A stretch of DNA of 64,000 nucleotides from an uncultured Bacteroides sp. (GTDB lineage: Bacteria; Bacteroidota; Bacteroidia; Bacteroidales; Bacteroidaceae). The stretch lies in assembly GCA_944321465.1 (NCBI GenBank), contig CALULL010000016.1, positions 1-64,000 on the forward strand, read 5' to 3'. Shown here piece by piece: positions 239 to 59,736 of this stretch. The notes below the pieces were generated by a model. It worked only from the letters and a program-made list of their open reading frames with translations. It ran no database searches and was not told the DNA's origin. The position numbers and the translations under genes were made by a program. How positions within the stretch are numbered: the first letter of the stretch is position 1; every line of letters starts with the position of its first letter.

Positions 239-304
239 CAGGTGTGCCACCGAGGAAGCACAGGAATGCCCGGCAGCGAGCGCACCTGTGCTCCCTGCCG
301 GGCA
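239..304. repeat. 22-bp tandem repeat array A
   Basis: Three consecutive 22-bp units at 239, 261 and 283, with a decayed fourth at 305. Units start CAGGTG, CAGGAA or CACCTG and continue with a TGCCC/GGGCA-type dyad. It lies 43 bp right of MITE-like copy 1 and before the end of the antiporter gene. It belongs to a family of twelve arrays in this window. Confidence 0.75.
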
Positions 305-309
305 TTCCT
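262..309. terminator. Perfect 15-bp hairpin formed by array A
   Basis: AGGAATGCCCGGCAG at 262-276 pairs exactly with CTGCCGGGCATTCCT at 295-309 across an 18-nt loop. It lies 30 bp beyond the stop codon of the minus-strand antiporter and could end its transcript. There is no clear T-run, so termination is inferred. The arms are built from neighbouring 22-bp repeat units. Confidence 0.5.
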
Positions 310-338
310 ATGCTTGTTTGGGCCTTCTGGGTAAGGTG

Positions 339-2579
339 TCAGGCTATGCGACGTATGGCCTCGGACTTGCCCACCAGCCAAAGCGTGTCGCCGACGGACA
401 GCACGGTGTCGGGGGAGGGGTTGGATAGGTTGCCGCCCGGGCGTCCGATGGCAAGGATGATACAGTCGGTAATGTCGGCCTGCCTGATGGTTTGTCCGGC
501 CAGCGGAGAGCCTGGCTCCAGTTGCACGTGCTCTATCTTCATCTCGCCCCGAGCCGTGGCGGCAGGCGCGCTTGGCGCATTGGGACATTGCTCCAGGGCC
601 TTGCGCAGGTCGGACAGCTGGTCGTCGGTGCCCACTACCGTGATGCGGTCGCAGGGATAGAGGTGCTCGTTGCCCTCGGGTATGTCGATGCGGCGTTCGC
701 CTCGGGTAATGGAAATGACGTTTACCTGATAGCGCGTGCGCAGGGCGGCTTCCTTCAGCGTCTGCCCCACGTAGGCACATTCGGGCGCGATGGTGAAGTC
801 GGCCAAGTGTAGCTCGTGCAGCTGGGCATCGTTCAGCAAGGCTTCGTCCACGCCCCTCATATCGGTGCCTCGTTTGCTTTCGTTGCCCGCGAAGTTGGCC
901 CAGAACTGTGCCTCCATGTCGTGTGACTGCTTGTGTATGTGCTTGGAATAGTAGACGATGGCCACGGCCACGGCTGCCAGCACGATGCCCACGCCCGATG
1001 CGACGTTGAACAGCCGGACAATGATGCCCGTGACGAGCACCATGCACAGCAGTATCTTGATGAGGATGAGCGAGACGAGCGAGCCACGGTTGAACACGCT
1101 GTCGGCCCACAGCTTGCGGAATTCTTCCGAGTGGTTCCCCTTGGTGATGATGCCCCACAGGAAGGGGGACACGACCACGAAGATGAGGGCAAAGCTCAGC
1201 AGGCTGCCCCAGAGGCCGGGAACGTGGCGCATGAGCCACGGCTCGGCGTAGGCGAAGAACAAGCCGATGAAGAACAGGCACATGACGGCGTAGAGAGCCA
1301 CGGACAGGAGCATGGAGCGCAACAGCTTGTGCCAGGTGCTGCGGTGGCGCACGGTCATGGTGCCCGAGGCGTAGCGGGCCAGGGCGGACTTCAGGGTGGG
1401 GGGCAGATGGCGGTCGAGCACGTTGTAGGCCGGCAGGGCAAAGCGCATCATGTAGGGCGTGAAGAAGGTCGTAATAACCGACACGGCCACGATGACGGGA
1501 TAGAGGAAGTCGTCGGTCACCTTCAAGGCGGTGCCCAGCGAAGCGATGATGAAGGCGAACTCGCCTACCTGCGTCAGCGAGAAGCCTGCTTGCATGGCCT
1601 CTTTGAGCGGCTGTCCCGAGAGCACTACGCCGAAGCTGCCGAACACGGCCTGCCCCACCAGCACCAGGACGACGAGCACGAGTATGGGGCCTATGTACTG
1701 TGCTATGACGGCGGGGTCTATCATCATGCCGACCGATACGAAGAACACCGAGGAAAACAGGTCTTTCACGGGCTGCACGATGCGCTCTATCTTGGCGGCC
1801 TCGGAAGTCTCGGCCAACAGCGACCCCATGACGAACGCGCCCAGTGCGGAGGAGAAACCGGCCTTGACGGCTATCATCACCATGCCGAGACACAGGCCCA
1901 GCGAGCCGATGAGCAGGATTTCGTCGGTGACGTAGCGGTGTATCTTCTTCAGCAGCGTGGGCACCAGGTAGATGCCCAGTACCGACCAGAAGATGAGGAA
2001 GGCGGCCAGCTTGAACACGCTTTGGAGCATCGCCATGCCCTCGAACTGCTGGCTGGCGGCCAGCGTGGAAAGCATTACCAGCATGACTACGCCCATGAGG
2101 TCTTCGACGACGAGGATGCCCAGGACGATGCCGGTGAACTTCTGTTGCAGCAGTCCCATGTCGTTGAAGGCCTTATAGACAATGGCCGTAGAGGACATAG
2201 ACATCATGCCGCCCAGGAAAATGCAGCTCATGTGCGAGAAGCCCATGATGTGTCCTGCCGTGTATCCTACGAATATCATGCCGCAGACAATGGTCATCGT
2301 GGCTACCACAGCGGTCAGGCCTACGTTCATCAACTTCTTGAAGCTGAAGCCCAGTCCCATCGAGAAGAGGAGGAAAATGACACCGATGTCGCCCCACGTC
2401 TTGATGTCGGTCATGTCGGTTACGGTGGGGAACAGGGCGATGGAGGGCCCGGCCAGCAGGCCGGCCACGATATAGCCCAGAATGACAGGTTGCTTCAACC
2501 ACTTGAATACGACCGTCACGATGCCCGCGATGATGAGTATGACGGCCAGGTCGGAAATGATAGGTGCTACTTCGGCCAT
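339..2579 (-). CDS. CPA2-family cation:proton antiporter with two TrkA-C domains
   Basis: A 746-residue inner-membrane protein of the Kef-type monovalent cation:proton antiporter family. Residues 1 to about 385 are a typical Na_H_exchanger core of about twelve hydrophobic helices. A second block of about four helices follows around 410-545. The tail has two TrkA-C-like regulatory modules, about 585-660 and 679-746; the second contains SVGDTLWLVG near its end. I see no Rossmann TrkA-N domain, so this is not a classical KefB/KefC with NAD binding. The start MAEVAPIISDL begins directly with the first helix. The likely role is K+ or Na+ export coupled to pH and osmotic control; the ion is not decided by sequence. 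Confidence 0.85.
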   Translation of the reverse strand: MAEVAPIISDLAVILIIAGIVTVVFKWLKQPVILGYIVAGLLAGPSIALFPTVTDMTDIKTWGDIGVIFLLFSMGLGFSFKKLMNVGLTAVVATMTIVCGMIFVGYTAGHIMGFSHMSCIFLGGMMSMSSTAIVYKAFNDMGLLQQKFTGIVLGILVVEDLMGVVMLVMLSTLAASQQFEGMAMLQSVFKLAAFLIFWSVLGIYLVPTLLKKIHRYVTDEILLIGSLGLCLGMVMIAVKAGFSSALGAFVMGSLLAETSEAAKIERIVQPVKDLFSSVFFVSVGMMIDPAVIAQYIGPILVLVVLVLVGQAVFGSFGVVLSGQPLKEAMQAGFSLTQVGEFAFIIASLGTALKVTDDFLYPVIVAVSVITTFFTPYMMRFALPAYNVLDRHLPPTLKSALARYASGTMTVRHRSTWHKLLRSMLLSVALYAVMCLFFIGLFFAYAEPWLMRHVPGLWGSLLSFALIFVVVSPFLWGIITKGNHSEEFRKLWADSVFNRGSLVSLILIKILLCMVLVTGIIVRLFNVASGVGIVLAAVAVAIVYYSKHIHKQSHDMEAQFWANFAGNESKRGTDMRGVDEALLNDAQLHELHLADFTIAPECAYVGQTLKEAALRTRYQVNVISITRGERRIDIPEGNEHLYPCDRITVVGTDDQLSDLRKALEQCPNAPSAPAATARGEMKIEHVQLEPGSPLAGQTIRQADITDCIILAIGRPGGNLSNPSPDTVLSVGDTLWLVGKSEAIRRIA

Positions 2580-2719
2580 GTCGTTGTGTTGTGTTTGAGG
2601 TTTGCTTTGTTAGGAGGTGCAAAATAAGGACAAAATAAGTCTACCTTGTCCTCCCGGGGAGCAAAGATTAAGTTATTTTGCACATCACTTCTCCCGTTTC
2701 TGTCGGCGGGAGGACGACC

Positions 2720-3646
2720 TCAGAACCACTTTATTTTTCGGAACAGGACGAACGTTGCCGCACTGATAAGCCCGGAGCACAGAATGATTAGGGCAAAGGC
2801 GTGCGAAGCATTTTCCAGATGTATGTCTACATTCATGCCATAGAAGCTGGCTATCAGCGTAGGGATGGCCAAGGTGATGGACAGGCTCGTCATGCGTTTC
2901 ATAATGGAGTTGACGTTGTTGGAGATGATGGAAGCGAAGGCGTCCATCGTGCCCGTGAGTATGTCGCTGTAGACGTTTACTGTGTTATAGGCTTGCTTCA
3001 GCTCGATTACCACGTCTTCGAGCAGTGCCATGTCAAGATACTCCGTGCCCTGGAAGATGTTTCTCAGCCGCCCTATCATGACTTCGTTGCCGCGTATGGA
3101 GGTGTCGAAATAGACGAGTGTTTTCTGTAGTTTCATCAGATTGAGCAGGTCCTCGTTGCGGATGCTTTTCTCCAGTTCCTTTTCGGCGGTGGACACTTCG
3201 TTGTTTATCTGTTTGAGGTACTTCAGGAACCACACGGCCGAGGAGTAAATGATGCGCAGGATGAGGTCAAGCTTGTTGCTGACCACGATGCCCTTGCGGC
3301 GCGTATGGAGTATGAAGTCGGGAATCATGTCCGTATGGTGGTAGCACACGGAGACGATGATTTTGTCGTTGGTGATGATGCCGATGGGGACGGTAATGAA
3401 CGGTATGCCGTCCTGGTTGCTGGGCATGGGAATGCGCAGGATGGTGAGCAGCCAGTCGCCTTCGGTCTCGGTGCGGGGACGTTCATCGATGTCGGCAATG
3501 TCCTCCAGAAAAGACTCGGGCACACTCAGCTCTTGCGTCAGAAAACGGAAGTCGTCACTGTCGGGGCACTCCACGTTCACCCAGCAGCCGGGTGTCCATT
3601 CGGCTTTCTCTACAAAGCCGTTTTCGCTGTACAGGTACTTTCTCAT
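2720..3646 (-). CDS. corA: CorA-family magnesium transporter
   Basis: A 308-residue protein with a long, mostly helical cytoplasmic N-terminal domain and two C-terminal membrane helices. The family signature GMN (residues 270-272, in YGMNVDIH) ends the first helix, as in CorA Mg2+/Co2+ channels. I start at MRKYLYSENGF (3646) rather than at the open frame's earlier start at 3730, because the extra 28 residues are basic, proline-rich and cover the promoter region. It is transcribed divergently from rnhB, and the two promoters form a mirror-image inverted repeat. Confidence 0.88.
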   Translation of the reverse strand: MRKYLYSENGFVEKAEWTPGCWVNVECPDSDDFRFLTQELSVPESFLEDIADIDERPRTETEGDWLLTILRIPMPSNQDGIPFITVPIGIITNDKIIVSVCYHHTDMIPDFILHTRRKGIVVSNKLDLILRIIYSSAVWFLKYLKQINNEVSTAEKELEKSIRNEDLLNLMKLQKTLVYFDTSIRGNEVMIGRLRNIFQGTEYLDMALLEDVVIELKQAYNTVNVYSDILTGTMDAFASIISNNVNSIMKRMTSLSITLAIPTLIASFYGMNVDIHLENASHAFALIILCSGLISAATFVLFRKIKWF

Positions 3647-3712
3647 ACGGTGTGTTCTTGGCCTTTTTCGTTTGGGTGGCGGTCTTGTTTCCAGGCAAAC
3701 GCCGTTCCGAAA

Positions 3713-3759
3713 CGGGGCAAAGGTAGCCAAATCCTTGAGAAATGGTTACCTTTGCCCCG
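3713..3759. promoter_or_regulatory. Mirror-image divergent promoter corA / rnhB
   Basis: CGGGGCAAAGGTA at 3713-3725 is the exact reverse complement of TACCTTTGCCCCG at 3747-3759. Each arm contains one TAnnTTTG -7 box (TACCTTTG), the left one reading toward corA and the right one toward rnhB. The arms are separated by 21 bp. Confidence 0.7.
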
Positions 3760-3780
3760 CGAATATAACAGAAAAGTAAC

Positions 3781-4407
3781 ATGCTTTTACCATACATGCA
3801 CGAGGGGCTTCTTGAGGCCGGATGTGACGAGGCAGGGCGGGGCTGCCTGGCCGGGGCTGTCTATGCCGCTGCCGTGGTGTTGCCGCCCGACTTCCGCAGC
3901 GAGTTGCTGAACGACTCCAAGCAGCTCACCGAGCGGCAACGCTACGACCTGCGTCCGCTCATCGAACAAGAAGCATTGGCCTGGGCGATCGGCGTGGCCA
4001 CGCCGCAGGAAATAGACCGGCTGAACATCCTGAACGCTTCGCTCTTGGCCATGCACCGTGCCATAGGGGCTTTGAAACTGGTGCCTCAGCACATACTGGT
4101 GGACGGCAACCGCTTCAGGCCCTATCCCGGCGTGCCCCACACCACAGTGGTAAAGGGCGACGGCAAGTACCTTTCCATCGCAGCCGCTTCTGTGCTGGCC
4201 AAGACCTACCGCGACGACTATATGGACCGTCTGCACGCCGAATACCCTTACTATGGCTGGGACCAGAACAAGGGCTATCCTACCCGCGAGCACCGGGATG
4301 CCATTGCTGCCCACGGCATTACGCCCTATCACCGCAGGTCGTTCCGGCATGTGGCCGATGCTTCCGGCCTGTGCGGCGAAGGGCGGATGCTCGACTTCCA
4401 GCCTTAG
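3781..4407 (+). CDS. rnhB: Ribonuclease HII
   Basis: A 208-residue RNase HII that cleaves the RNA strand of RNA-DNA hybrids and removes single ribonucleotides from DNA. The signature GCDEAGRG carries catalytic D16 and E17; D108 (LVDGN) and D127 (KGDGK) complete the acidic set. The glycine-rich and [10 protein letters not shown] segments are typical. Length is normal for the family. The ATG lies 27 bp after a TACCTTTG -7 box that is part of the divergent promoter shared with corA. It is convergent with the permease gene that follows. Confidence 0.95.
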
Positions 4408-4480
4408 CCGTGGATGCAGGGCGGGGGTGGGGCGGAAGTTCCGGCTCTAAGAACCGTTGTGTCGTTTCTCCTGTCTTTCC

Positions 4481-4505
4481 GACAATGGATAAAGAGGGCA
4501 TTGTC
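4481..4505. terminator. Weak hairpin between rnhB and permease
   Basis: GACAATG at 4481-4487 pairs with CATTGTC at 4499-4505 in the convergent gap. The stem is only 7 bp and there is no T-run, so the assignment is tentative. Confidence 0.3.
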
Positions 4506-4517
4506 CTTTGTCACCTG

Positions 4518-5858
4518 TCAGAACAGACAACCGAACGCCCATCCCGAAAGAGTCGCCATAGCGATTACTAAAGCCACATAGACTGCGGTTTTCTTCAGTC
4601 CGAGCACCCGGCTGATGACGAGCATACTCGGCAACGAAAGGGACGGGCCAGCCAGCAGCAGTGCCAACGCAGGCCCTTTCCCCATGCCCGAAGCTAACAG
4701 CCCCTGTATAATCGGTATCTCGGTGAGCGTGGCGAAATACATGAAGGCACCGGCAAAACTGGCAAAGAAATTGGACAGCAGCGAATTGCCGCCAACCGAC
4801 CTTTGTATCCATTCGTTAGGAATAATGCCTGCATACGAATTGCCGTCATGAGTGGAGCCAAGCAAGAACCCCGCAGTGAGTACACCTATTGCGAGCAACG
4901 GCAGAATTTGCTTTGCAAATCCCCAAGAAGCCGACAGCCATTCTTGGTTGTCTTCGCTCTTTTTGTCAAAGTATAATATCACGGACAGGCAAGTTACGGC
5001 AACTATCATCGGGATAAGAGGTACAAATCTTTCGTCGGCGACAAGCCACTTCGAAAAGCCTGCCGATACCGCTGTAGCCAACATTCCAAGCAGCACCCAT
5101 GCTGCTTTCAGTCTTAGGAACTTTATCAGCGACCAGCACAACAGCAGCGATAGGCCTCCGACGACATGCCACTTGTATGTGAATACGCTATGCCACCCTT
5201 CGTCCTCAGCAGAGGCAGGTGCTCCCCAATTGGCAAATACAAGTATCAAAACAAGGGTAAAGAAAAGAAAGGCCGTCTGCCATGCCGGACGCTCCTCTGG
5301 GGGCAGAACGATGTTCATTTGCTGCTCATGTTTGGCTTGTTCCTCCTTTCGGAAGATAAAGGCCATGACAAGTCCTATGACAATAGAGAAGGATACGGCT
5401 CCGACCACACGTGCAATGCCCATCTCCATACCTAATATCCGGGCCGTCAGAATAATAGACAGTACACTTATGGCCGGACCTGAGTATAAGAAGGCTATAG
5501 CCGGTCCCAGACCTGCACCACGCTTGTAGATACTGGTGAAAAGCGGCAAGATGGTGCAGGAGCATATGGCCAGTATGCCTCCCGAGACGGCAGCTATCGA
5601 GTAGGCCAGCCATTTCCTTGCGTTCGCGCCGAAATACCGTATCACCGAAGCCTGGCTGACAAACACGGCTATCACTCCAGCGATGAAGAACGCAGGCAGC
5701 AGACATAAGACAACATGCTCGCGGGCGTACCATTGACTAAGGTCCAGCATAGCGTCAATTGCCGAGGAAAACCGTGCGCTTTGCAGCGGCATGAAGAACA
5801 CGGCTGCAAAAAGCACTACAATCCCCAAGAGGGTTTTCAGTTCCTTTTTTGTCTCCAT
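4518..5858 (-). CDS. DUF318/ArsP-type permease
   Basis: A 446-residue polytopic membrane protein of the predicted permease family that includes ArsP (organoarsenical efflux) and SO_0444-type heavy-metal exporters. The diagnostic CSC pair (C99 and C101, in AICSCTILPLF) lies in a membrane helix and is repeated in style by GPSLSLPSM near the C-terminus. A soluble linker rich in charge around 170-190 splits two bundles of helices. It is the last gene of the minus-strand run arsR, arsF-like, arsG-like, mini-thioredoxin, permease, separated from the mini-thioredoxin by 12 bp. Context suggests export of a trivalent or organic arsenical; another soft metal is possible. Confidence 0.75.
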   Translation of the reverse strand: METKKELKTLLGIVVLFAAVFFMPLQSARFSSAIDAMLDLSQWYAREHVVLCLLPAFFIAGVIAVFVSQASVIRYFGANARKWLAYSIAAVSGGILAICSCTILPLFTSIYKRGAGLGPAIAFLYSGPAISVLSIILTARILGMEMGIARVVGAVSFSIVIGLVMAFIFRKEEQAKHEQQMNIVLPPEERPAWQTAFLFFTLVLILVFANWGAPASAEDEGWHSVFTYKWHVVGGLSLLLCWSLIKFLRLKAAWVLLGMLATAVSAGFSKWLVADERFVPLIPMIVAVTCLSVILYFDKKSEDNQEWLSASWGFAKQILPLLAIGVLTAGFLLGSTHDGNSYAGIIPNEWIQRSVGGNSLLSNFFASFAGAFMYFATLTEIPIIQGLLASGMGKGPALALLLAGPSLSLPSMLVISRVLGLKKTAVYVALVIAMATLSGWAFGCLF

Positions 5859-5870
5859 ACGCTTCCGGTT

Positions 5871-6104
5871 TTACAGGCCAAGTGCCTTTCGCACCTCAGC
5901 TTCGGTTGGGACGTGACCCTTAATCCTGACTTCTCCGTCTACCACTATGGCAGGCGTACTCAAGATGTTGTAACTCATCATCTCCACGATGTCCTCCACC
6001 TTGGTGAGCTGTGCTTCGGGCATGCTTTCGGTCACCACTTTTTCTACTACTTTATAGGCCGCCTTGCATTTGGCGCAACCCGGCCCCAAAACTTTAATCT
6101 CCAT
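5871..6104 (-). CDS. Mini-thioredoxin (TM0996/MTH895 family)
   Basis: A 77-residue thioredoxin-fold protein starting MEIKVLGPGCAKCKAA, with redox or metal-binding cysteines C10 and C13 in a CAKC motif. Proteins of this size are often encoded next to DUF318 permeases, as here. The likely role is reduction or delivery of the metal or arsenical to the permease. It lacks a signal peptide, so it should be cytoplasmic. Confidence 0.8.
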   Translation of the reverse strand: MEIKVLGPGCAKCKAAYKVVEKVVTESMPEAQLTKVEDIVEMMSYNILSTPAIVVDGEVRIKGHVPTEAEVRKALGL

Positions 6105-6143
6105 AATAAGTATCGTTCTTTTTCTTAATTAGACAATCGTGCT

Positions 6144-6863
6144 TTAGAAAAACACCGCCAGGCAATAGTACAAGCCTATGGCAAGAAACAGTATGCCGAC
6201 AACAACGCTCAGCCACTTTTGCACAGACTGTATCCGTCCGTAGATCTCGCCGATGCGTTGCGTACTGAATGCCAGTACCCACGCTACAATCAGCACGGGC
6301 AAAGCCGTGGAAACAGCAAACAGGACCGGCAGCAAATAGCCGGCCGTTACCGTGGCCGACATGGGTATTAGCATACCGAAGTAGAACACCCCACTTGTGG
6401 GGCAGAAAGCCAAGGCGAACAAAACTCCGAGCAGCAAAGCACCGGCACTGCCTCGCCTTGCCAGTTTCTCTCCATTCCCTTTGAAGCTCCAAGAGGGTAG
6501 CGGGAGCCTGTCGCCCAACAGCATGAACGCTCCTACCGCCAGCAACACGGGGCCAAGAAGCATTTCTCCGTACCGGGCAATAGCCTTCTGAATGCCAAAC
6601 AGGCTGGCCCCTTCTTTCAACACAGTTATCAGTACGAGGCCCAGCACGGTATAGGCCAATGTGCGCCCCAGCGTGTAGAAAAGCCCTTTTCTGAATATTG
6701 TCCCACGGCTTTCTATGTCTTTTCCGATAAACCCGATTGCCGCTATGTTCGTGGCCAGCGGACAAGGCGATATGGCAGTGAGCAGTCCTAACAGGAAAGC
6801 CGTGAGTGCAGGAGTCGTACTGCTGTCAAGTAACGAATGCAACCAGTCCATAAGCACGTTCAA
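6144..6863 (-). CDS. arsG: ArsG/CcdA-like efflux permease
   Basis: A 239-residue membrane protein with about six helices and the LysE/CcdA-type start (LLTAISPCPLATNIAAIGF). It matches the family annotated as aromatic aminobenzylarsenical efflux permease ArsG, distinguished from CcdA by its operon partner. Its start overlaps the stop of the ArsF-like gene by 4 bp, which implies translational coupling. Likely role: removal of trivalent aromatic or inorganic arsenicals from the cytoplasm. A thiol-electron carrier role like CcdA remains an alternative, because both neighbours are thioredoxin-fold proteins. Confidence 0.7.
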   Translation of the reverse strand: MNVLMDWLHSLLDSSTTPALTAFLLGLLTAISPCPLATNIAAIGFIGKDIESRGTIFRKGLFYTLGRTLAYTVLGLVLITVLKEGASLFGIQKAIARYGEMLLGPVLLAVGAFMLLGDRLPLPSWSFKGNGEKLARRGSAGALLLGVLFALAFCPTSGVFYFGMLIPMSATVTAGYLLPVLFAVSTALPVLIVAWVLAFSTQRIGEIYGRIQSVQKWLSVVVGILFLAIGLYYCLAVFF

Positions 6864-7291: not shown

Positions 7292-7311
7292 ATACTTTCT
7301 TTGCTATATGT

Positions 7312-7331
7312 TATTCGCAAAACAACGAACA
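7312..7331 (-). promoter_or_regulatory. Putative ArsR operator upstream of arsF
   Basis: The plus strand reads TATTCG-CAAAACAA-CGAACA. It forms a 6-8-6 dyad with one mismatch and matches the arsR promoter site at 7694-7713 at 15 of 20 positions. The centre reads TTGTTTTG on the minus strand, one base from a TAnnTTTG -7 box, so repressor binding there would block a promoter. Confidence 0.5.
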
Positions 7332-7353
7332 TGTAGGGTAAAAAGAAAGGCCA

Positions 7354-7674: not shown

Positions 7675-7693
7675 CGTAATACATTCCGTTTGT

Positions 7694-7730: not shown

Positions 7731-7816
7731 GCGATTACGCATTCTTTTTGCACCTGCGCTCCAAATTTTTCCCCGGTCTCCTCGCCTGGACTATTTGGAC
7801 CGTGCCTGTCCGGGGA

Positions 7817-7859
7817 CACCTGTGCTCCGAACGTTCGCAGGTAAGCGTCCCGCATCCTC
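7817..7859. repeat. 22-bp repeat array B
   Basis: Two units, CACCTGTGCTCC... at 7817 and CAGGTAAGCGTCC... at 7838; the first is 21 bp. A lone related segment, CAAAGGTGTGCTACC, sits near 7903. It lies in the divergent gap between arsR and the DUF59 gene. Apart from this array and the two promoters I see nothing else in the 326-bp gap. Confidence 0.55.
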
Positions 7860-7963
7860 ATTTTCCTCTTCCAGCCCCAGCCCGAAGAGCGCAAAAGCGG
7901 GAGCAAAGGTGTGCTACCTCCGTTTTCTTCCTTTCTTTGTTCGCTTTTTCCAGCTATTTTCCT

Positions 7964-7971: not shown

Positions 7972-8000
7972 CCAGACAAACCAATACATAGCACACGAAT

Positions 8001-10420: not shown

Positions 10421-10565
10421 CGCTTACATGCCTTTCCTTCCGAAATTCTCTTCCAGAGCTGCCGTAGCCCGTCGCACGTCCTCTGCGCCTGCCTTCTGTG
10501 CCCTGTGGAGGCGCCCGCCGCAAGCTCTGCGGGCACATCCGCGCCCCAATCCGTGCGAGGGAGCA

Positions 10566-10631
10566 CAGGTGTGCCCGCTTGCGGGTATGCCTCCACCCCT
10601 TCGGGGGCGAACCTGTGCCCGCCGACAGACG
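10566..10631. repeat. 22-bp repeat array C
   Basis: Three exact-length units at 10566, 10588 and 10610. The first, CAGGTG followed by TGCCCGCTTGCGGGTA, is very close to the family consensus; the third begins AACCTGTGCCCGCC. Confidence 0.75.
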
Positions 10632-18014: not shown

Positions 18015-18076
18015 ACGGGTCCCCGCCCGCCCCGCTCCCCGCCGGAAACACTCACCGGAACGTCCCCGAGGAAGCA

Positions 18077-18142
18077 CACCTGTGCCTGCCGACGGGCGTA
18101 CCTGTCCGCCCGACGTGGCACAGGTGCGTCCGCAAGCGGGCA
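18077..18142. repeat. 22-bp repeat array D
   Basis: Three units at 18077, 18099 and 18121, beginning CACCTG, TACCTG and CAGGTG. A broken fourth (CAGGATAGG) follows. It lies between araC and ldcA, ending 70 bp before the ldcA -33 box. Confidence 0.75.
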
Positions 18143-18211
18143 CAGGATAGGTGGCCCGCCACCCCTGGAAAAGCCGCAAGGCGGGGTGGGAGAAGAAATA
18201 AGTGGCCGATA

Positions 18212-26614: not shown

Positions 26615-26829
26615 CAAAAAAACAACCCTCGCGCCAATACGCGGACAGCACTTTGCCGCTGCGTTGTCGTCCGGGGTGCGTGCCCTCGTGCGGGGCATCC
26701 TGCCTGCAGCCCTCCTATGTCCGTATTTGTCGCCCGTCGCCGCCGTTTTGTCACAAGGCCGCGCCAAAAAACTCGGGCGGCAGTCTCGGTCCGCCCCGCA
26801 GGCGCGTCTTTGCTCCCTCGCGGCCACCT

Positions 26830-26917
26830 GTCCTTTGCCCGGTCGGGGGCGCAGGTATGCTCCCCGGCAGGCACAGGTTTGTCCGTCGGCGGGTGAACGT
26901 GTGCCCCCGGAGGGGGT
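26830..26917. repeat. 22-bp repeat array E
   Basis: Four units at 26830, 26852, 26874 and 26896; the second and third begin CAGGTATG and CAGGTTTG. It ends 67 bp before the helicase -33 box. Confidence 0.75.
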
Positions 26918-31384: not shown

Positions 31385-31444
31385 CCGCCGGGCCGCCCCT
31401 CGCGGCACCCTCCGGGCAGCCTCTGCGCCGGGCCTGCGGTGGCA

Positions 31445-31532
31445 CACCTGTGCCCGTCGGCGGGGACACCTGTGCCACCGTGGGGGCAAACGTTTGCCAG
31501 CGGGCGGACGGACCTGTGCCCGCTGGCAGCGC
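31445..31532. repeat. 22-bp repeat array F
   Basis: Four units at 31445, 31467, 31489 and 31511 (starts CACCTG, CACCTG, AACGTT, GACCTG), between glf and hppA. Confidence 0.75.
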
Positions 31533-39989: not shown

Positions 39990-40137
39990 GTAAGAAAACT
40001 GTTAGTTCCTCTCCTCTCCTCCTGTTTTTTGTCATCGTGCCCGTGTGGTGTCCGTCTTCCGGCCCGGCCTCTCGCCCGGCGAGCCTGGTTCGTCCCGGGG
40101 CGTTCCCGACGACGGTGCCGTAGCCTCGTGCGGAGCC

Positions 40138-40225
40138 TGCCTTTGCCCGCTTGCTGGCTCTCCTCTGCCCGCTTGCAGGTGCTCCTTTGCCCGGTGGCGG
40201 GCGTTCCTTTGCCCGCATGGCCGTG
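40138..40225. repeat. 22-bp repeat array G
   Basis: Four units at 40138, 40160, 40182 and 40204, each with a TTTGCCCG or TCTGCCCG core. It is the most regular array on inspection of its cores and lies 45 bp left of MITE-like copy 2. Confidence 0.8.
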
Positions 40226-40270: not shown

Positions 40271-40464
40271 CCCAAATCGGTCATTAGACCGCCTTGCCGT
40301 GTGCCTGACAGTCTTTCTACGGCTTTCCAAGCCCTTTCGTCTTGCCGTCGGCATCTTGTCTGCTGCTTTGTCTCGACGTAGCCCGCTACGCCTTCGACAA
40401 AGGCGACAGCCAATCTGCACGGCGGCAAAACGAAATCGCTTTGGACTCTAATGACCGATTTGGG
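40271..40464 (+). mobile_element. Fold-back MITE-like element, copy 2
   Basis: A 194-bp copy with perfect 18-bp terminal inverted repeats (CCCAAATCGGTCATTAGA and its complement). It is flanked by TTTAA on both sides (40266-40270 and 40465-40469), consistent with a target duplication that includes TTAA. It is nearly identical to copy 1 and in the same orientation. Confidence 0.85.
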
Positions 40465-44327: not shown

Positions 44328-44337
44328 CCCGGAGGCG

Positions 44338-44425
44338 CAGGTCTGCTCCCTCGCTGGCTCTCCTTTGCCCCCGTGGGCGCACAGGTCTGCCCGTTTGCTG
44401 GCACAGGTGCGTCCCCGGGGCGGTT
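44338..44425. repeat. 22-bp repeat array H
   Basis: Four units at 44338, 44360, 44382 and 44404 (starts CAGGTC, CTCCTT, CAGGTC, CAGGTG), between the M50 stop and the typA promoter. Confidence 0.8.
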
Positions 44426-46984: not shown

Positions 46985-47108
46985 GAAGGCACCGGGACGT
47001 AAGTTGCTTACCTGCGGGTAACCAATGTTGGGCCACAGGACGGTAGGGAACGTTAAAAAGACTGAAGATTTGTCCTTCCTCCGGGGCTTGTTTTCTTCGG
47101 CGGGGGCA

Positions 47109-47196
47109 CAAGTGTGCTGCTTCGGGGGTAAAGGTGTGCCCGCCGGGGAGCAGACCTGTGCGCTCAGCCGGGCACAGGTGCGCCCCTGCGTGCTCG
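47109..47196. repeat. 22-bp repeat array I
   Basis: Four units at 47109, 47131, 47153 and 47175 (starts CAAGTG, AAGGTG, GACCTG, CAGGTG). It ends 32 bp before MITE-like copy 3. Confidence 0.8.
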
Positions 47197-47228: not shown

Positions 47229-47422
47229 CCCAAATCGGTCATTAGAGTCCAAAGCGATTTTGTTTTGCCGCCGTGCAGACTGGCAGTCGCCTTTGTCGAA
47301 GGCGTGGCGGGCTACGTCGAGACAAAGCGGCAGACAAGATACCGGCGGCAGGACGAAAGGGCTTGGAAGGCCGTAGAAAGACTGTCAGGCACACGGCAAG
47401 GCGGTCTAATGACCGATTGGGG
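47229..47422 (-). mobile_element. Fold-back MITE-like element, copy 3
   Basis: A 194-bp inverted copy. Its ends are CCCAAATCGGTCATTAGA and TCTAATGACCGATTGGGG, with one mismatch. TTAG occurs directly on both sides (47225-47228 and 47424-47427), as expected for a 4-bp target duplication. The right-hand TTAG contains the aroA stop codon (TAA on the minus strand). Confidence 0.85.
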
Positions 47423-51269: not shown

Positions 51270-51308
51270 GCTCTTGCCCGGGGAGGCCGGACAGCCCCTT
51301 TGGGGGCA

Positions 51309-51395
51309 AAGGTCTGCCCGTCTGTCCGCGCACCTGTGCCCGCTCGGGAGTACACCTGTGCTCCCCGGCGGGCACAAGTGTGCCTAGCCGGGGCG
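51309..51395. repeat. 22-bp repeat array J
   Basis: Four units at 51309, 51331, 51353 and 51375 (starts AAGGTC, CACCTG, CACCTG, CAAGTG), in the convergent gap between the kinase fusion and copA. Confidence 0.8.
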
Positions 51396-53968: not shown

Positions 53969-53995
53969 AGGTTTGCGGCTTTCGGTTCCCGGCAG

Positions 53996-54003
53996 CAAAG
54001 GTA
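53996..54003 (-). promoter_or_regulatory. -7 box of copA
   Basis: Minus strand TACCTTTG, 27 bp before the ATG. There is no clear -33 box, which would suit an activator-dependent promoter. Confidence 0.55.
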
Positions 54004-54066
54004 GTGAGGGGCGGGGCCTCGCGGCTTACGGTTTTGTGGATAAGATTTATGTTTTCCACCCGCTCT

Positions 54067-54642
54067 CTACAGTGCGTCGAGTGCCTTGCGGTCTTTGTCG
54101 CGGGCTTGGCGGTAGGCGGTGGGCGTGAGGCCCGTCACGGCCTTGAACTGCGTGCTGAGGTAAGCCGCGCTCGAATAGCCCAGACGGTCGGCTATCTCGT
54201 TCAGGTTAAGCTCGCCGTAGGCCAGCAGTTCTTTGGCCCGTTCAATCTTCTGCGCGATGGCATACCGTTCGAGGGTGGTGCCCGTCTGTTCGGAAAAGAG
54301 CTTGCTCAGCGCGCTGTACTCGCGGTGGAAGCGGCGGCTGAGGTAGTCGGACAGGTTCTCGCGCGGCTCGCGGTCGGCGTAGTGCACCTGCTCGATTACC
54401 GCGTTCTTGAGTTGCTCCACCAGCTGCAGGCGCGGGTCGTCGAGCAGTTCGAAGCCCAAGGCCTCAAGCCCGGTGCGCAGCCGTTCCAGCGCGTCGGGGG
54501 CGGGGGACTGTGCCAGCACGGCGGTGCCCAGCCCCACCGACAGGGGCTGGAGGCCCGCGTCGGCGAGACATTGGCGCACGGCCATGATGCAGCGCGGGCA
54601 TACCATGTTCTTGATGTGCAGGGTTGTGGTCTGTTCAGTCAT
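54067..54642 (-). CDS. AraC-type regulator with N-terminal HMA-like metal domain
   Basis: A 191-residue protein. Residues about 5-72 resemble a heavy-metal-associated domain (TLHIKNMVCPRCIMAVRQCL, with C-P-R-C as ligands), and residues about 90-190 are a complete AraC DNA-binding domain (LNEIADRLGYSSAAYLSTQFKAVTG). The combination suggests direct copper sensing by an activator of copA, encoded 98 bp downstream. I start at MTEQTTT (54642), just after a -7 box at 54692; upstream codons are array-derived. Confidence 0.82.
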   Translation of the reverse strand: MTEQTTTLHIKNMVCPRCIMAVRQCLADAGLQPLSVGLGTAVLAQSPAPDALERLRTGLEALGFELLDDPRLQLVEQLKNAVIEQVHYADREPRENLSDYLSRRFHREYSALSKLFSEQTGTTLERYAIAQKIERAKELLAYGELNLNEIADRLGYSSAAYLSTQFKAVTGLTPTAYRQARDKDRKALDAL

Positions 54643-54691
54643 AGCAACGTGTGGCAGGCCGACGGCTCCGGGGCCTGGCTTCTGCTCCCGG

Positions 54692-54699
54692 CAAAAGTA
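54692..54699 (-). promoter_or_regulatory. -7 box of HMA-AraC gene
   Basis: Minus strand TACTTTTG, 49 bp before the ATG; no clear -33 box. Confidence 0.55.
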
Positions 54700-54786
54700 G
54701 CAAGAATGTTTCAGAAAACGCACGCCCGTGCCCGGAAATGTGTCCTTGCACGCCCGGAGACCCGCCGGACGGGGGCTGTGGTGGCA

Positions 54787-54864
54787 TAGGTGTGCCCGGA
54801 CGGAGGCACAGGTTTGCCCGCCGCCGGGCACAGGTGCGCTCCCGAAGGGGCAGACCTGTGCTGC
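54787..54864. repeat. 22-bp repeat array K
   Basis: Three full units at 54787, 54809 and 54831 plus a part at 54853 (starts TAGGTG, CAGGTT, CAGGTG, GACCTG), in the divergent gap between the HMA-AraC gene and the TetR gene. Confidence 0.8.
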
Positions 54865-54907
54865 AAAATGCAGGTAGGAGGGGGCGAAAATACCCGACAA
54901 GTAGGTA

Positions 54908-54938
54908 TTGACCGCGTGGCCGAAAGGACGCAACTTTG
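54908..54938 (+). promoter_or_regulatory. TetR gene promoter
   Basis: TTG at 54908-54910 and CAACTTTG (one mismatch) at 54931-54938 with a 20-bp spacer. Confidence 0.55.
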
Positions 54939-54965
54939 CATTCGTAAACCAACGTGAGACGAGAC

Positions 54966-55577
54966 ATGCAATATCCCAAGGACGACGTAAGGCGGAAGTT
55001 GCTGGAGGCCGCAGCCCGCATCTTTGCCCGGAAGGGCTACTTGAAGGCTTCTATGCGCGACATCGCGGCGGAGTCGGGCGTGGGGCTGAGCAACATATAC
55101 AACTACTACGACAGCAAGGACGAACTGTTTCGCCACGTCGTCGGTCCCGCCGTGCAGGTGCTCGAACGCCTGCTCGACGAGCATCACGGGCGGTGCGGGA
55201 CGGACATCATGGCCATGTGCTCGCCCGACTACTGCGAGCGTGTCGTGGGCGAATACGTCGGTTTCATCGACTGCCAGCGCCGCCCGCTGGCCCTGCTGTT
55301 GTTCCGGGCGCAAGGTTCGTCGCTCGAAAACTTCCGCGAGGAGTTTGCCGACCGCGCCACCCGGCTCGTGGAGCAGTACTTTGCCGACATGAAGCGGCGG
55401 CACCCGCAGATAGCCGCCGACGTGTCGGGCTTCTCGATACGGATGCATACGGTGTGGATGTTCGCGCTCCTCGAAGAAGTCGTGAAGCGCGACGTGGGGC
55501 CGGACGAGCTGAGGCAAATCGTCTCCGAATACGTCACTATCGAGATGGCGGGCTGGAGGGAACTCATGAAACTGTGA
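54966..55577 (+). CDS. TetR-family transcriptional regulator
   Basis: A 203-residue regulator with the usual N-terminal helix-turn-helix: RRKLLEAAARIFARKGYLKASMRDIAAESGVGLSNIYNYYDSK in segments, then a ligand-binding helical domain. I use ATG 54966 (MQYPKDD) rather than GTG 54954. Its stop codon lies within the right arm of the terminator hairpin that follows. It precedes a set of methyltransferase and exporter genes that it may control. Confidence 0.9.
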   Translation: MQYPKDDVRRKLLEAAARIFARKGYLKASMRDIAAESGVGLSNIYNYYDSKDELFRHVVGPAVQVLERLLDEHHGRCGTDIMAMCSPDYCERVVGEYVGFIDCQRRPLALLLFRAQGSSLENFREEFADRATRLVEQYFADMKRRHPQIAADVSGFSIRMHTVWMFALLEEVVKRDVGPDELRQIVSEYVTIEMAGWRELMKL

Positions 55578-55598
55578 GTTCCCTCCGCTTTTTTTTTT
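55555..55598 (+). terminator. Terminator overlapping the TetR stop codon
   Basis: GGAGGGAACTCA (55555-55566) pairs perfectly with TGAGTTCCCTCC (55575-55586), followed by GC and ten T. The TGA at 55575-55577 is the TetR stop. Confidence 0.9.
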
Positions 55599-55705
55599 GA
55601 ACACCTGCTGAGCGTTGTTCGCTAATGAGGGGCCGGGGCGCAGCCTCCGTGCCGCCGCCGGGCCGGGCAGGAACAAGAAGGAAAGAAGACTTAAAAACAA
55701 CCGAT

Positions 55706-56536
55706 ATGGAACAAGAGAGACATCCTTTTCAGAACATTGTGGCCGAGACGTTGCTCATCCCCCTCTACATGAGGGCCAAGGAGAGCCGCCGGGGGCCGGA
55801 GGCCATCCTGCACGACCCGATGGCCGAGCAACTTGTGGAGAAAATAGACTACGACTACGGCAGGCTGGACACAGCCCCGCTGAGCGAGGTGGGGTGCGTG
55901 GTGCGGGGCTGGTACTTCGACCGGGCGGTGAAGCGTTTCGTCGAAGCCTGTCAGGGCGAGGCTGTGGTGGTGAACGTGGGCTGCGGGCTCGACACGCGCT
56001 GGCAACGCCTGGCCGACAGCCGGGCTGCCTTCTACGAACTGGACCTGCCCGAGGTCATCGACCTGCGCAGGCGGCTCATCCCCGAACCCGCTGCCGACCG
56101 CTATCTGGCTGCTTCGCTGCTCGATACGGACTGGATGGACACTCTGCGGAGCAACCACCCCGAGGCCCGCTTCATCTTTGTGGCCGAGGGAGTGCTGATG
56201 TACTTCTACGAGTCGCAGGTACGTAGCTTTGTGCGGGCCGTGGCCCGTCGCTTCGGCGGGGGCGAACTGTGGTTTGATGTCTGTGGCAGCATGATGAGCC
56301 GCCGGGGACTGAAGCCCGACTCGCTGCGCGGCCATCAGGCCCAGATACGCTCGGGCATCGACGATGGCCGGACGGTGGAGGGCTGGGACAGCCGCCTGCG
56401 TCTGCTGCGGCAGGACAACTACATGCGCTTCTTCCGCCCGCGCTGGGGCTTCCTCTACGGGCAAGTGCTAGGGCGGATGACACGGCTGTGCTACCGCTTC
56501 AGCTCGCTGCTGGGATATGAGATAAGACAAGTATAA
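55706..56536 (+). CDS. PPM1/LCMT-type SAM methyltransferase
   Basis: A 276-residue class I methyltransferase of the leucine carboxyl methyltransferase-like family. VVNVGCGLDTRWQRLA is motif I, FYELDLPEVIDLRR is motif II (acidic SAM contact) and FVAEGVLMYFYESQV is the family signature. Bacterial members often act on small molecules. I start at MEQERHPF (55706). It is first in the run methyltransferase, small membrane protein, methyltransferase; the following genes are spaced 22 and 3 bp apart. Confidence 0.85.
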   Translation: MEQERHPFQNIVAETLLIPLYMRAKESRRGPEAILHDPMAEQLVEKIDYDYGRLDTAPLSEVGCVVRGWYFDRAVKRFVEACQGEAVVVNVGCGLDTRWQRLADSRAAFYELDLPEVIDLRRRLIPEPAADRYLAASLLDTDWMDTLRSNHPEARFIFVAEGVLMYFYESQVRSFVRAVARRFGGGELWFDVCGSMMSRRGLKPDSLRGHQAQIRSGIDDGRTVEGWDSRLRLLRQDNYMRFFRPRWGFLYGQVLGRMTRLCYRFSSLLGYEIRQV

Positions 56537-56558
56537 ACCAATCGAAATGTAACCTGTT

Positions 56559-56963
56559 ATGGAAAAGTACAGAACCAGGGCCGTCGCCCTGTGGATTTTG
56601 CTCTCGGCAGGCTTCGCCCTGCACTGTGTGGCCGACGTGTTGCCTATCTTCTGGAGCGTGGACGTGGCCGTCGACGCTTCGGCCCAGATGCCGCAGGCCA
56701 TGCTCCTGTTTATGATGTCGCTCAGCTTCTTTGTCCCCGCCGTGGGGGTGCTGAGCCTGCTCTACAGCGACAGCCGCTGGACACGGGCCGTCAACCTCGT
56801 GCTGGCGGTGGCGGTGATGCTCTTCAACTTTGTACATTCTGCCGAGCTGGGCACGCTGGCCAACTGGGGACAGCTGGCCATACTGCCGCTGATGGACGTG
56901 CTGGGCGTGCTGCTCGTGGCCGACTCGGTGCGCCTGTGCCGGGCGAAAGAGGAAGGACGGTGA
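56559..56963 (+). CDS. Small four-helix membrane protein, unknown
   Basis: A 134-residue protein with four predicted membrane helices (about 9-28, 45-65, 75-95 and 100-125) and short charged ends. I do not recognise a family. It lies 22 bp after the first methyltransferase and 3 bp before the second, so the three are probably one transcription unit. A role in positioning or export of a methylated product is only a guess. Confidence 0.65.
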   Translation: MEKYRTRAVALWILLSAGFALHCVADVLPIFWSVDVAVDASAQMPQAMLLFMMSLSFFVPAVGVLSLLYSDSRWTRAVNLVLAVAVMLFNFVHSAELGTLANWGQLAILPLMDVLGVLLVADSVRLCRAKEEGR

Positions 56964-56966
56964 GGC

Positions 56967-57590
56967 ATGGGAAAGAGTCTGCTGAACCGCTTCTTGCAGC
57001 ACACGAGACTGCCCCGGGGCCTTGCGGGGCGGCTGGTGCTGCGCGGCATGAACTGCGGGCACGCCCGCATGGCGGAGTGGGGGCTGTCGTTCGTGGCTTG
57101 GGGAGCCGACTGGCGGGTGCTCGACGTGGGCTGCGGCGGGGGAGCCAACCTGCGCCGCCTGTTGAGGCTGTGCCCTCACGGAAGGGTATGGGGCATTGAC
57201 TGCTCGGAAGAGAGCGTGGCCTTTGCCCGGAGGGTGAACCACCGGGAGCTGGAACGCCGCTGCTTCGTGGAGCAGGGGAGTGCCGGGGCGTTGCCCTACG
57301 CCGATGCCGCTTTCGATGCAGTGACGGCCTTCGAGACCGTTTACTTCTGGCCTGACCTGCCACAGGCGTTTGCCGAGGTGAAGAGGGTGTTGCGTCCCGG
57401 CGGGTTGTTCCTTGTCTGCAACGAGGCAAGCGACCCGTCCGACACGCGGTGGACGAGCCGCATCGAGGGCATGAGGGTGTACGGCGAGGCTGAGTTGGAA
57501 CGGCTTCTGTCTGAGGCCGGGTTTGTCCGTGTGGAGACGCACCGTCGGGGGCGCGAGGGGCTGTGCCTGCTTGCCGGGAAGCCGAAGTAG
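56967..57590 (+). CDS. Class I SAM-dependent methyltransferase
   Basis: A 207-residue Methyltransf_11-type enzyme. LDVGCGGGANLRRLL is motif I (about 51-65), VWGIDCSEESV is motif II, and LPYADAAFDAVTAFETVYFW spans motifs III-IV. FAEVKRVLRPGGLFLVCNE follows as expected. Substrate unknown; UbiE-like and small-molecule methyltransferases share this layout. It starts 3 bp after the membrane protein gene. Confidence 0.88.
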   Translation: MGKSLLNRFLQHTRLPRGLAGRLVLRGMNCGHARMAEWGLSFVAWGADWRVLDVGCGGGANLRRLLRLCPHGRVWGIDCSEESVAFARRVNHRELERRCFVEQGSAGALPYADAAFDAVTAFETVYFWPDLPQAFAEVKRVLRPGGLFLVCNEASDPSDTRWTSRIEGMRVYGEAELERLLSEAGFVRVETHRRGREGLCLLAGKPK

Positions 57591-57637
57591 GCTGCCGCGA
57601 TGCGTCGGGGCCGGGCGGTAGCGGGGAAACAGGTGCC

Positions 57638-58969
57638 CTATGGGTGGCCGTCCGGCTGGTTGCCGAACGCCTTGCGTTCCACGCTGCGTGCCAGCCCCGT
57701 CTGCACCAGGCCGCGCACGAGCAGGTAGAGCAGGAAGGCCAGCCACAAGGCGTGGTTGCCCAAAGCGGGCGCGAGCAGGTAGAAGACAAGGAAGAACGTG
57801 GCTGCCGCCACGGACATGGACAGCAGCATGGCGCGTGTGGCCGTGGCTCCGATGAACACGCCGTCCCACACGAAAGCCGCCGTGCCAGCCAGCGGTATGG
57901 CCAGTGCCCAGCCCACGTAGCTGTGGGAGGCGCGGACCACGTGCGGCTCGTCGGTAAGCAGCGACAGGAAAGCGTCGCCCCCCAGGGCGTAGGCCAGCGT
58001 GAAGGCTGCGGCCATGATGCCGCCCCATGCGAACAGGCGGCCTACGGCCAGCCGCAGCCCCGGGCGGTTGCAGGCTCCGATGAGGCGTCCGCTAAGGGCC
58101 TCGCCCGCGTAGGCAAAGCCGTCCATGACGTAGGAGTAGAGCGTGAAGAGCTGCATCAGCAGGGCGTTGACGGCCAGCACCACCTCGCCCTGCCGGGCAC
58201 CGGCCGAGGTGAAGAACAGCGTGACTGCCACCAGGCAGAGCGTGCGTAGGAAGATGTCGCGGTTGACGGCAAAGAAGCGTCGCATGGCACCCCGGGCAAG
58301 CAACCCGCGCCACACGGCGTGGCGGCGCAGCCGCCCGTAGCAGCCCGCCCATAGCGCAGCGGCCATGAGGAAGCCTGCCCACTGGGCGATGAGCGTGCCC
58401 AAGGCTACGCCCTCGACCTTCAGCCCTGCGGCGTAGACGAGCAGGAGGCTGGCGACGATGTTGACGACGTTCTGGGTGATGGCGACCAGCATGGGGATGC
58501 GTGAGTTCTGCATGCCGATGTACCAGCCGGTGAAGGCGTAGAGGCCCAGCATGGCAGGTGCCCCCCAGATGCAGATGTCGAAGTAGACGGCGGCCAACCG
58601 GCGCACTTCGCCCGGCGGCCCGACGAGGGCCAGCGCGGCCTGGCGCAGGGGATGTTGCAGCAACAGCAGAAGGGCGGCTGCCGCAAGGCCTATGCCCAGC
58701 GAACGAACCAGCAGGCGCACGACCTCGGACAGATCGCGGCGGCCAAAGGCTTGTGCCGTGAGTCCGCTGGTGCCCATGCGCAGGAAGCCCAGCAACCAGT
58801 AGGCAACGTTGAACACCATGCCGCCCACGGCCACGGCACCGATGTAGGCTGCCGAGCCTAAATGGCCGGCTATGGCTACATCGACCAGGCCCAGCAGGGG
58901 AACGGTGATGTTGCTCACAATGGCGGGCAGGGCAATGCGCAGGATTTGTCGGTCGATGGCGTTCGGCAT
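57638..58969 (-). CDS. MATE-family efflux transporter
   Basis: A 443-residue, 12-helix multidrug and toxin extrusion transporter. IALPAIVSNITVPLLGLVDVAIAGHLG is the classical start of the N-terminal lobe, and MVFNVAYWLLGFLRMGTSGLTAQAFG follows; the second lobe repeats the pattern around IFLRTLCLVAVTLFF. It most resembles the DinF branch. It is convergent with the methyltransferase genes and lies 7 bp after a small lipoprotein gene. Confidence 0.92.
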   Translation of the reverse strand: MPNAIDRQILRIALPAIVSNITVPLLGLVDVAIAGHLGSAAYIGAVAVGGMVFNVAYWLLGFLRMGTSGLTAQAFGRRDLSEVVRLLVRSLGIGLAAAALLLLLQHPLRQAALALVGPPGEVRRLAAVYFDICIWGAPAMLGLYAFTGWYIGMQNSRIPMLVAITQNVVNIVASLLLVYAAGLKVEGVALGTLIAQWAGFLMAAALWAGCYGRLRRHAVWRGLLARGAMRRFFAVNRDIFLRTLCLVAVTLFFTSAGARQGEVVLAVNALLMQLFTLYSYVMDGFAYAGEALSGRLIGACNRPGLRLAVGRLFAWGGIMAAAFTLAYALGGDAFLSLLTDEPHVVRASHSYVGWALAIPLAGTAAFVWDGVFIGATATRAMLLSMSVAAATFFLVFYLLAPALGNHALWLAFLLYLLVRGLVQTGLARSVERKAFGNQPDGHP

Positions 58970-58976
58970 GGAGGCG

Positions 58977-59396
58977 TCAGTAGTAGCTGCGGAAGGTCAT
59001 CATCTGTCCGTCGAAGTAACACGAAAGCATCCCGCCGCTAAGCCAGATGTTGTCCATATAGAGGTAATCGCCCGGACCGTAGCGCATCTCGATGGAGGAG
59101 AAGGCCCACGAGGTCCACCGCCAGTCGAAGTCAAAGCGGTCGACATACGAGGCATGGGGGTAGTCACTGTAGATTTCCTCCATCCCCGTCCCGTTGGGGT
59201 AGAACGTGAGGAAATGGTCGACGTAGGCTCCGTCATAGGCTGTGTAGGAAGTCTGCCACACATAGCGGCACAGCTCGCGGGTGGCCTCGCGCTCGTCCAG
59301 AGGCTGATCGCCTATGTGGACCTCGCAGGCGGCAAGGCACAGGGCGGTCGCGGCGGTAGCCAGCAGGTGCAGGGCATGGGTGAGGGTCTTGCTCAT
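58977..59396 (-). CDS. Small lipoprotein, unknown
   Basis: A 139-residue lipoprotein: signal peptide with lipobox CLAAC, then about 115 residues rich in Tyr, Trp and Asp (ELCRYVWQTSYTAYDGAYVDHF, FDFDWRWTSWAFSS). The pattern recalls the short lipocalin-like or META-like lipoproteins of Bacteroidota, but I cannot assign it. It is 7 bp upstream of the MATE gene on the same strand, and the two likely share a promoter. Confidence 0.75.
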   Translation of the reverse strand: MSKTLTHALHLLATAATALCLAACEVHIGDQPLDEREATRELCRYVWQTSYTAYDGAYVDHFLTFYPNGTGMEEIYSDYPHASYVDRFDFDWRWTSWAFSSIEMRYGPGDYLYMDNIWLSGGMLSCYFDGQMMTFRSYY

Positions 59397-59473
59397 GTGG
59401 ATTGTCGTTGTAGTGGGTGCTTGCGCGTCGGGCAGGCGGGTCGGTCGTGGTGGCCGCTTTCCCTTCGGTAGGG

Positions 59474-59481
59474 CAAAGGTA
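59474..59481 (-). promoter_or_regulatory. -7 box of lipoprotein-MATE unit
   Basis: Minus strand TACCTTTG, 77 bp before the ATG; -33 not clear. Confidence 0.5.
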
Positions 59482-59629
59482 AGCAAAAAATGCGGTCGCG
59501 CGCTTACAGTCTGTGCTTTTTTGTACGGACGGAGCATCGGGACGGCGGCCGGACGAAGGGCGGACTGGCCGGTCGGATGGGACAGTCAGGGGGCGTCCGC
59601 AGAGGGCTTGGAAGGCGGGTCCGAGGGCA

Positions 59630-59736
59630 GAGGTCTGCTCTCAGGCGGGCGATAGTCTGCTCTCAGGCGGGCGATAGTCTGTCCTCTGGCGGGCACAGGT
59701 AGACCGGCAAGCGGGCAAAGGTGTGCCTGCCAGAGG
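59630..59736. repeat. 22-bp repeat array L
   Basis: The longest array: units at 59630, 59652, 59674 and 59696 plus a fifth partial at 59718. Units one and two differ only in their first three bases, pointing to recent duplication. Confidence 0.85.

Follow-up and report, generated by a model that had tools for sequence, protein, structure and literature searches.

Intergenic arrays of four 22-bp dyad sites at even intervals on an uncultured Bacteroides chromosome, candidate marks for a putative DNA-binding protein

The DNA stretch examined here (the window) comprises 64,000 nucleotides of an uncultured Bacteroides sp. (assembly GCA_944321465.1, contig CALULL010000016.1, positions 1 to 64,000 of the forward strand) and carries twelve intergenic arrays of a palindromic 22-bp repeat, which raises the question of what such arrays are and what they do on the chromosome. 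The genome is 2.495 Mb in 41 contigs and 90.7% complete, and the window is contig C16. The repeated element consists of four dyad sites with the consensus GGGCACA(GG or CC)TGTGCCC and centres 22 bp apart, and is called a tetrad below. The conserved core of a site is GCAnA-SS-TnTGC, where SS is GG or CC at 366 of the 400 sites and GC or CG at 5. The element census, which covers 864 kb of the genome, recognized 100 elements. Exactly four good registers are present in 85 of them, five in 4, three in 6, and two in 5; scaled to the genome, this corresponds to about 290 arrays. The registers flanking the four score 3 or less in 196 of 200 cases (median -19) and above 3 in 4. Information per slot is similar across all four (15.6-16.3 bits), and the 88-bp core is GC-rich, with an AT fraction of 0.30 compared with 0.35-0.36 for the adjoining 40 bp on either side. 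The answer favoured here, though tentatively, is that tetrads are arrays of dimer sites for a putative protein marking or anchoring the chromosome at intervals.

The 22-bp period proposed from the window held in the DNA outside it. A profile of 22 positions, trained on 43 window units and applied to 400 kb outside the window, gave 244 matches above 12 bits, compared with 14 in the reversed and 26 in Markov-simulated sequence. Above 6 bits, neighbouring matches on the same strand lay almost only 22, 44, and 66 bp apart; the 22-bp distance occurred 100 times per strand, and among the 30 commonest spacings listed, 21 and 23 bp appeared once each, on one strand. In a second, held-out stretch of 400 kb, four-site scores above 20 occurred 50 times at spacing 22 and once at 23, but never at 18-21 or 24-26. 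The same 50 elements were obtained at every threshold from 15 to 30, with 0 in the reversed sequence. A 24-mer consensus with at most three mismatches matched the whole genome 175 times, and its reversed pattern 0 times. Neither of the two outcomes that the sequence-only reading of the window had named as telling against it, shuffled-type DNA equally rich in such arrays or a spread of other periods, was found. The final four-site dyad model was trained on 44 elements, window arrays included, and run without hand selection; its stored start positions are 1 base too high, which leaves the statistics unaffected. A set of 49 arrays was restricted to those having at least four registers, which excluded C1 81882 and window array B among others; C1 87502, located in a called gene, was also left out. 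Five of the 49 were removed as misregistered in the covariation counts, leaving 44 elements, while in the gene-context analysis one was removed and four were re-registered.

The elements of this genome are strongly diverged, with a mean identity of 0.556 and 72-84% in the best eight pairs. Units of one array are 0.58 identical and units of different arrays 0.55 (z 4.8); being barely more alike within an array than between arrays, they do not stem from recent tandem duplications. A variable-number minisatellite grown by slippage would account for tandem 22-bp units, for a recent duplicate in window array L, and for the slight likeness within arrays, but it is hardly credible here, since that excess is small and exactly four good registers recur in 85 of the 100 elements of this one genome. 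The flank profile of the elements revealed no additional module, and in 98 flanks no recurrent end sequence, the terminal-repeat feature of miniature inverted-repeat transposable elements (MITEs), was found. In three elements (G000 C6:12054, C6:33638, and C6:39699), strong outer sites stand exactly 66 bp apart, with inner ones weak or decayed.

The arrays lie outside genes, as had been stated for the window. With gene overlap judged by a simple purpose-made gene finder and a noncoding fraction of 0.196, 99 of the 100 elements touch no called gene, and one overlaps a gene by 23 bp. All gap types are occupied, again as described from the window: 58 elements are in tandem, 28 in divergent, and 13 in convergent gaps (99 classified), where 55.8, 23.8, and 19.3, respectively, are expected by bases and 61.0, 24.6, and 13.4 by gap number. 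Gene starts are avoided, as 2 of 115 start distances are below 50 bp, compared with 23 of 84 stop distances.

Along the chromosome, the recurrence of about 5 kb estimated from the window proved too short; the measured mean is 8.5 kb and the median 6.9 kb (92 intervals). The coefficient of variation (CV) of spacing is 0.45 for the first and 0.49 for the held-out sample, and 0.47 for both combined, against 0.73-0.84 in nulls with the same numbers placed in the same gaps. For the combined sample the nulls are 0.76 and 0.83, and 0 of 5000 random placements were as even; P is at most 0.0008 in each test, the held-out one included. Intervals below 3 kb number 4 of 92, where 19-24 are expected, and no gap contains two elements. 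The placement on the chromosome is non-random, as would be expected of a chromosome-organising array.

The mean interval of 8.5 kb is also close to reported supercoil-domain sizes, and bacterial interspersed mosaic elements (BIMEs) of enterobacteria recruit DNA gyrase. The arrays could be topological sites at which gyrase, or a different enzyme that wraps DNA, is recruited to every supercoil domain, with which the GC-rich 88-bp core would agree. This explanation is improbable, however, as the four slots are alike, without a special centre, and gyrase is conserved while the site is wholly different between relatives (see below), so that an adapter would be required.

A MITE-like repeat served as an internal control. 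It has inverted ends CCCAAATCGGTCATTAGA, is mostly about 193 bp long and intergenic, and lies in the window at positions 1-196, 40271-40464, and 47229-47422. Its ends matched 192 times genome-wide. The repeat is not evenly spaced (44 clusters, CV 0.84, null 0.71), and its end-to-end inner distance varies between 155 and 179 bp in 30 copies, so indels do occur in this repeat. Rigid phasing and even spacing are thus peculiar to the tetrads. The repeat at first seemed linked to the arrays, but no tie is shown, since 22 of its 44 copies are no more than 1 kb from a tetrad and 18.5 are expected when placed randomly in gaps (P 0.15).

The sequence-only reading had offered hairpins at transcript ends as one option. 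As terminators or stabilisers formed in RNA, they would agree with the palindromic unit and with the 23 of 84 array-to-stop distances below 50 bp, but the pairing expected of them is missing in this genome. When Watson-Crick pairs in the 44 elements were compared with shuffles, at eleven symmetric pairs on each of two dyad axes (22 pairs), the largest z was 1.3, and the palindrome axis gave z -0.57 in the pooled-type pairing test. No outward position past the last site has T above 0.35 in the flanks. Convergent gaps hold fewer elements than expected by bases (13 of 99 against 19.3), and divergent gaps are not depleted (28 of 99, with 23.8-24.6 expected). The absence of covariation and the use of gap types as available speak against hairpins and terminators in this genome, and as an explanation of the arrays they are very improbable. 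Dyads without a pairing signal fit double-stranded sites read by protein dimers.

In relatives, the sequence is replaced and the geometry recurs. Among 158 genomes of the genus, the consensus gave 79 matches in its own genome, one each in 6, and none in 151 of the other 157; one exact-pattern scan of viral contigs gave no match. Many loci of Bacteroides and Mediterranea match the recQ-like protein of the window at 72-77% identity, which places the organism near Bacteroides. In 67 loci of relatives (1.22 Mb), screening for four-unit arrays of any period gave 25 of period 22, 10 of period 21, 6 of period 23, and 8 of all others from 15 to 40; third-order Markov simulations gave none, and several period-21 matches look coding. 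With a dyad filter and periods 17-29, only periods 21 (5), 22 (20), and 23 (8) were found, at 29 of the 67 loci, with one simulated match. Tetrad sequences differ between species and among families of one genome. Phocaeicola massiliensis has a GGACTGTACAGTCC tetrad family, and its tetrads are all intergenic (10 of 10), 8 of them in tandem gaps.

In genome G190, one of the relatives, the unrelated family A has the consensus GGCCTACACATACGTACGTGTAGGCC, whose core with at most one mismatch matched 109 times forward and 126 times in reverse. In a 320-kb sample of this genome, with at most three mismatches, exactly four registers are present in 14 of 18 arrays; a single array has five, another has three, and the remaining two have two (one of them cut by a contig end); the reversed control gave 2 matches, both on contig C2. 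With the array truncated by a contig end omitted, 17 of 17 are intergenic, and their spacing CV is 0.48 against 0.70 (P=0.04). Pairing is mostly unremarkable, as 12 of 13 pairs in family A (77 units) are without excess (z at most 1.3) and one has z 3.4; in a second, small family (25 units), two of 15 pairs reach z 3.1 and 2.0. Family A stands beside a second tetrad family in 4 of 8 clusters, with start-to-start distances of 53-60 bp in three and 31 bp in one. Paired families were seen in both orders, within a dispersed repeat of about 420-700 bp (L117 7299-7500, L118 526-735, L121 4871-5095, L155, and L156).

One intergenic spot with flanks 87-93% identical carries different 23-bp arrays in three loci of close relatives (L020 18232-18400 versus L023 8736-8840 and L054 18245-18370); judged from these sequences, the presence of an array is kept there while its sequence has apparently been replaced. 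In L072 and L039, a periodic array was noticed by eye shortly upstream of the recQ-like gene, as is window array E (the dyad score of L039 is weak, 0.59, and not all 67 loci extend there). In L049 (7849-8040, a Prevotellaceae metagenome-assembled genome), several near-identical 23-24-bp palindromic tandem repeats follow one another and form a young array, in contrast to the diverged tetrads.

Four dyads of similar strength at two-turn phase, without a pairing signal, outside genes, away from gene starts, and evenly spaced are best explained as arrays for cooperative protein binding with a chromosome-wide role. With the sites two helix turns apart, four protein dimers would line up next to each other along the same helix face, and a putative sequence-specific protein would bind the four sites cooperatively. 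Each intergenic array would then be a periodic anchor or domain mark, at intervals of about 8.5 kb, and in relatives tetrads of different sequence, each recognized by a separate protein, would be used instead. Protein binding, cooperativity, and an architectural role are the most likely meaning of these features. The suggestion of a DNA-binding protein or nucleoid role made from the window alone is thus kept in part: the two-turn phasing, the dyads without covariation, the GG/CC centre, and the even spacing have been added to it, while this support is indirect and the binder putative. A wider claim would make the arrays a chromosome ruler of Bacteroidaceae, with four-dimer two-turn arrays at even intervals and a fast-evolving reader, the site being re-invented in each species and the architecture conserved rather than the sequence; at this breadth the proposal is plausible but doubtful.

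Several observations weigh against cooperative protein arrays at regular intervals. Searches of the 90.7% complete genome for RAYT, HU, HU-HIG, Mu-type transposase, and IstB identified no binding protein; about 2 HU and about 3 HU-HIG proteins are candidates by fold only. Inner sites are lost or decayed in some arrays of this genome, and when counted more loosely in G190, only 9 of the 17 runs comprise exactly four units, while 5 comprise five. Array density differs widely between relatives: only 10 period-22 tetrads of two families occur in 500 kb of P. massiliensis, and none in 80 kb of P. vulgatus; an arrangement both dense and even is therefore not a general feature. Other points would suit hairpins. 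The gaps occupied in G190 are 9 convergent, 4 tandem, and 4 divergent (n=17), and several family-A arrays there have an A run before them and a T run at the end (e.g., L157 6372 and L160 14152), unlike the family of the window genome. The pooled tetrads of relatives show excess pairing, with 265 pairs versus 221.5 (z 4.7, 50 tetrads); when the arrays were inspected individually by eye, several of the largest contributions came from first or last windows lying in the flank, and genuine compensatory arms are present in L023 and L054. RNA hairpins may thus apply in the families of some relatives, as the convergent gaps of G190 and the arms of L023 and L054 indicate. Finally, the tetrads of two relatives lie in dispersed repeats, which suits mobile elements: copies share homology over about 420-700 bp in G190, and copies of one family over 220-310 bp in P. 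massiliensis.

These long shared flanks lead to the main rival, according to which tetrads represent small mobile elements or their descendants, the four sites being needed by a transposase or recombinase, with families that spread in each species and replace one another. Even spacing would then come from target immunity, a bound end-like array blocking nearby insertion, and such immunity is shown by Mu and Tn7. Several tetrad families per genome agree with this, as does locus L071, where a family-A tetrad is present and L055 and L057 have shorter intergenic sequence without one; so do the best eight pairs of this genome, at 72-84% identity against the mean of 56%. An IstB-like ATPase match in the genome could also be counted in its favour, though the family was matched in 13 of 14 control genomes as well. 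On the other side, the copies here are in phase in spite of their divergence (0.556), unlike the MITE-like copies, and this strict phase speaks against plain neutral relics. No RAYT (Y1_Tnp, PF01797) was matched in the genome (0 matches), with the control positive in 5 genomes. A search for Mu-type transposases gave no match, but its control was silent too, so it is uninformative. A mobile element is on balance the less likely explanation, and a mobile origin with later use could combine it with the protein-array reading.

In the window itself, the described units are present at all twelve array positions, and no strand is assigned to any array. The number of two to five units per array, given from the window, stands as a range but conceals the regularity, as nine arrays (A and D-K) have four sites, C three, and L five, while B is a remnant with two. 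Array A (237..324) has four 22-bp sites with slot scores of 23.9, 17.0, 23.1, and 13.1, and adjacent registers at -18.3 and -22.3. Array B (7815..7925) has lost its inner sites and retains those at 7815 (score 16.3) and 7904 (22.6), 89 bp apart; it was missed by the 44-element four-site model, which recovers 11 of the 12 arrays. Array C (10564..10629) has three sites (26.5, 6.7, and 23.2) without a fourth. All arrays from D to K have four sites. Array D (18075..18162) is in a tandem gap with a stop codon 60 bp before it, and F (31443..31530) and I (47107..47194) are in other tandem gaps. Array E (26828..26915) is in the gap between the divergent sppA-like and recQ-like genes, and G (40136..40223) and K (54785..54872) are in divergent gaps too. 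Array H (44336..44423) has a stop codon 8 bp before it and typA downstream, and J (51307..51394) is in a convergent gap. Array L (59628..59737) has five sites, two of which are a near-exact local duplicate. No Rfam family was matched in the window at gathering scores.

Among known systems, repetitive extragenic palindromic (REP) sequences and BIMEs are similar as species-specific intergenic dyads in many copies, and the mosaics with other modules in G190 add to this likeness. They lie mostly 3' of genes and are rare between divergent genes. The arrays of this genome are nearer to stops than to starts, yet divergent gaps hold 28 of 99 against 23.8 expected, which is not the REP/BIME placement; in addition, the tetrads are without hairpin covariation and without a Y1/RAYT match in the genome, and the elements are four sites at 22 bp and evenly spaced. 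In ParR centromeres and plasmid iterons, a small number of 20-22 bp sites in phase with the helix are cooperatively bound, at one locus per replicon; the phasing is alike, while the tetrads are present in hundreds of chromosomal copies. MatP/matS, SlmA, and Noc have many chromosomal dyad sites for one protein, as the tetrads would have, but these are single sites and are not known to form a species-specific four-site array. The GC hairpin and T run of an intrinsic terminator downstream of genes are not found in the family of this genome, although T runs occur in G190.

STAR elements of staphylococci are intergenic GC-rich repeats at other loci in each species, of function not known. Their 14-bp motif TNTGTTGNGGCCCN usually occurs once per locus and at most 7 times, with spacers of 40 bp or more, and S. 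aureus has 32-39 loci (PMC3532100). They resemble the tetrads in being intergenic, GC-rich, and at species-specific loci, and differ from the 22-bp dyad without spacers, in four sites at about 290 loci; this comparison is by description, the STAR motif not having been searched for. The BrickBuilt MITE of Porphyromonas gingivalis, from the same bacterial order, is described as 19 elements with 23-nt repeats, 1 to 22.8 per element, between a leader and a tail that bear IS5-like inverted ends (PMC4596501). Its repeats are likewise intergenic and in tandem; its variable repeat number and its leader and tail with inverted ends set it apart from arrays fixed at four. REP/BIME, STAR, BrickBuilt, minisatellites, and terminators each fail in at least one feature tested or compared. 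That no described family fits, as was said of the window, agrees with the open-access literature, in which such tetrads were not found described (subscription journals were outside the search).

Even under the mobile-element reading, a small element confined to four phased sites, with its spacing set by self-avoidance, would be unusual. If the arrays are indeed sites of a chromosome-marking protein, important gut bacteria would mark their chromosome at regular intervals by arrays of which the geometry is conserved and the sequence is not. This would provide a testable handle on genome folding or partitioning, and on the replacement of a genome-wide binding site between species.

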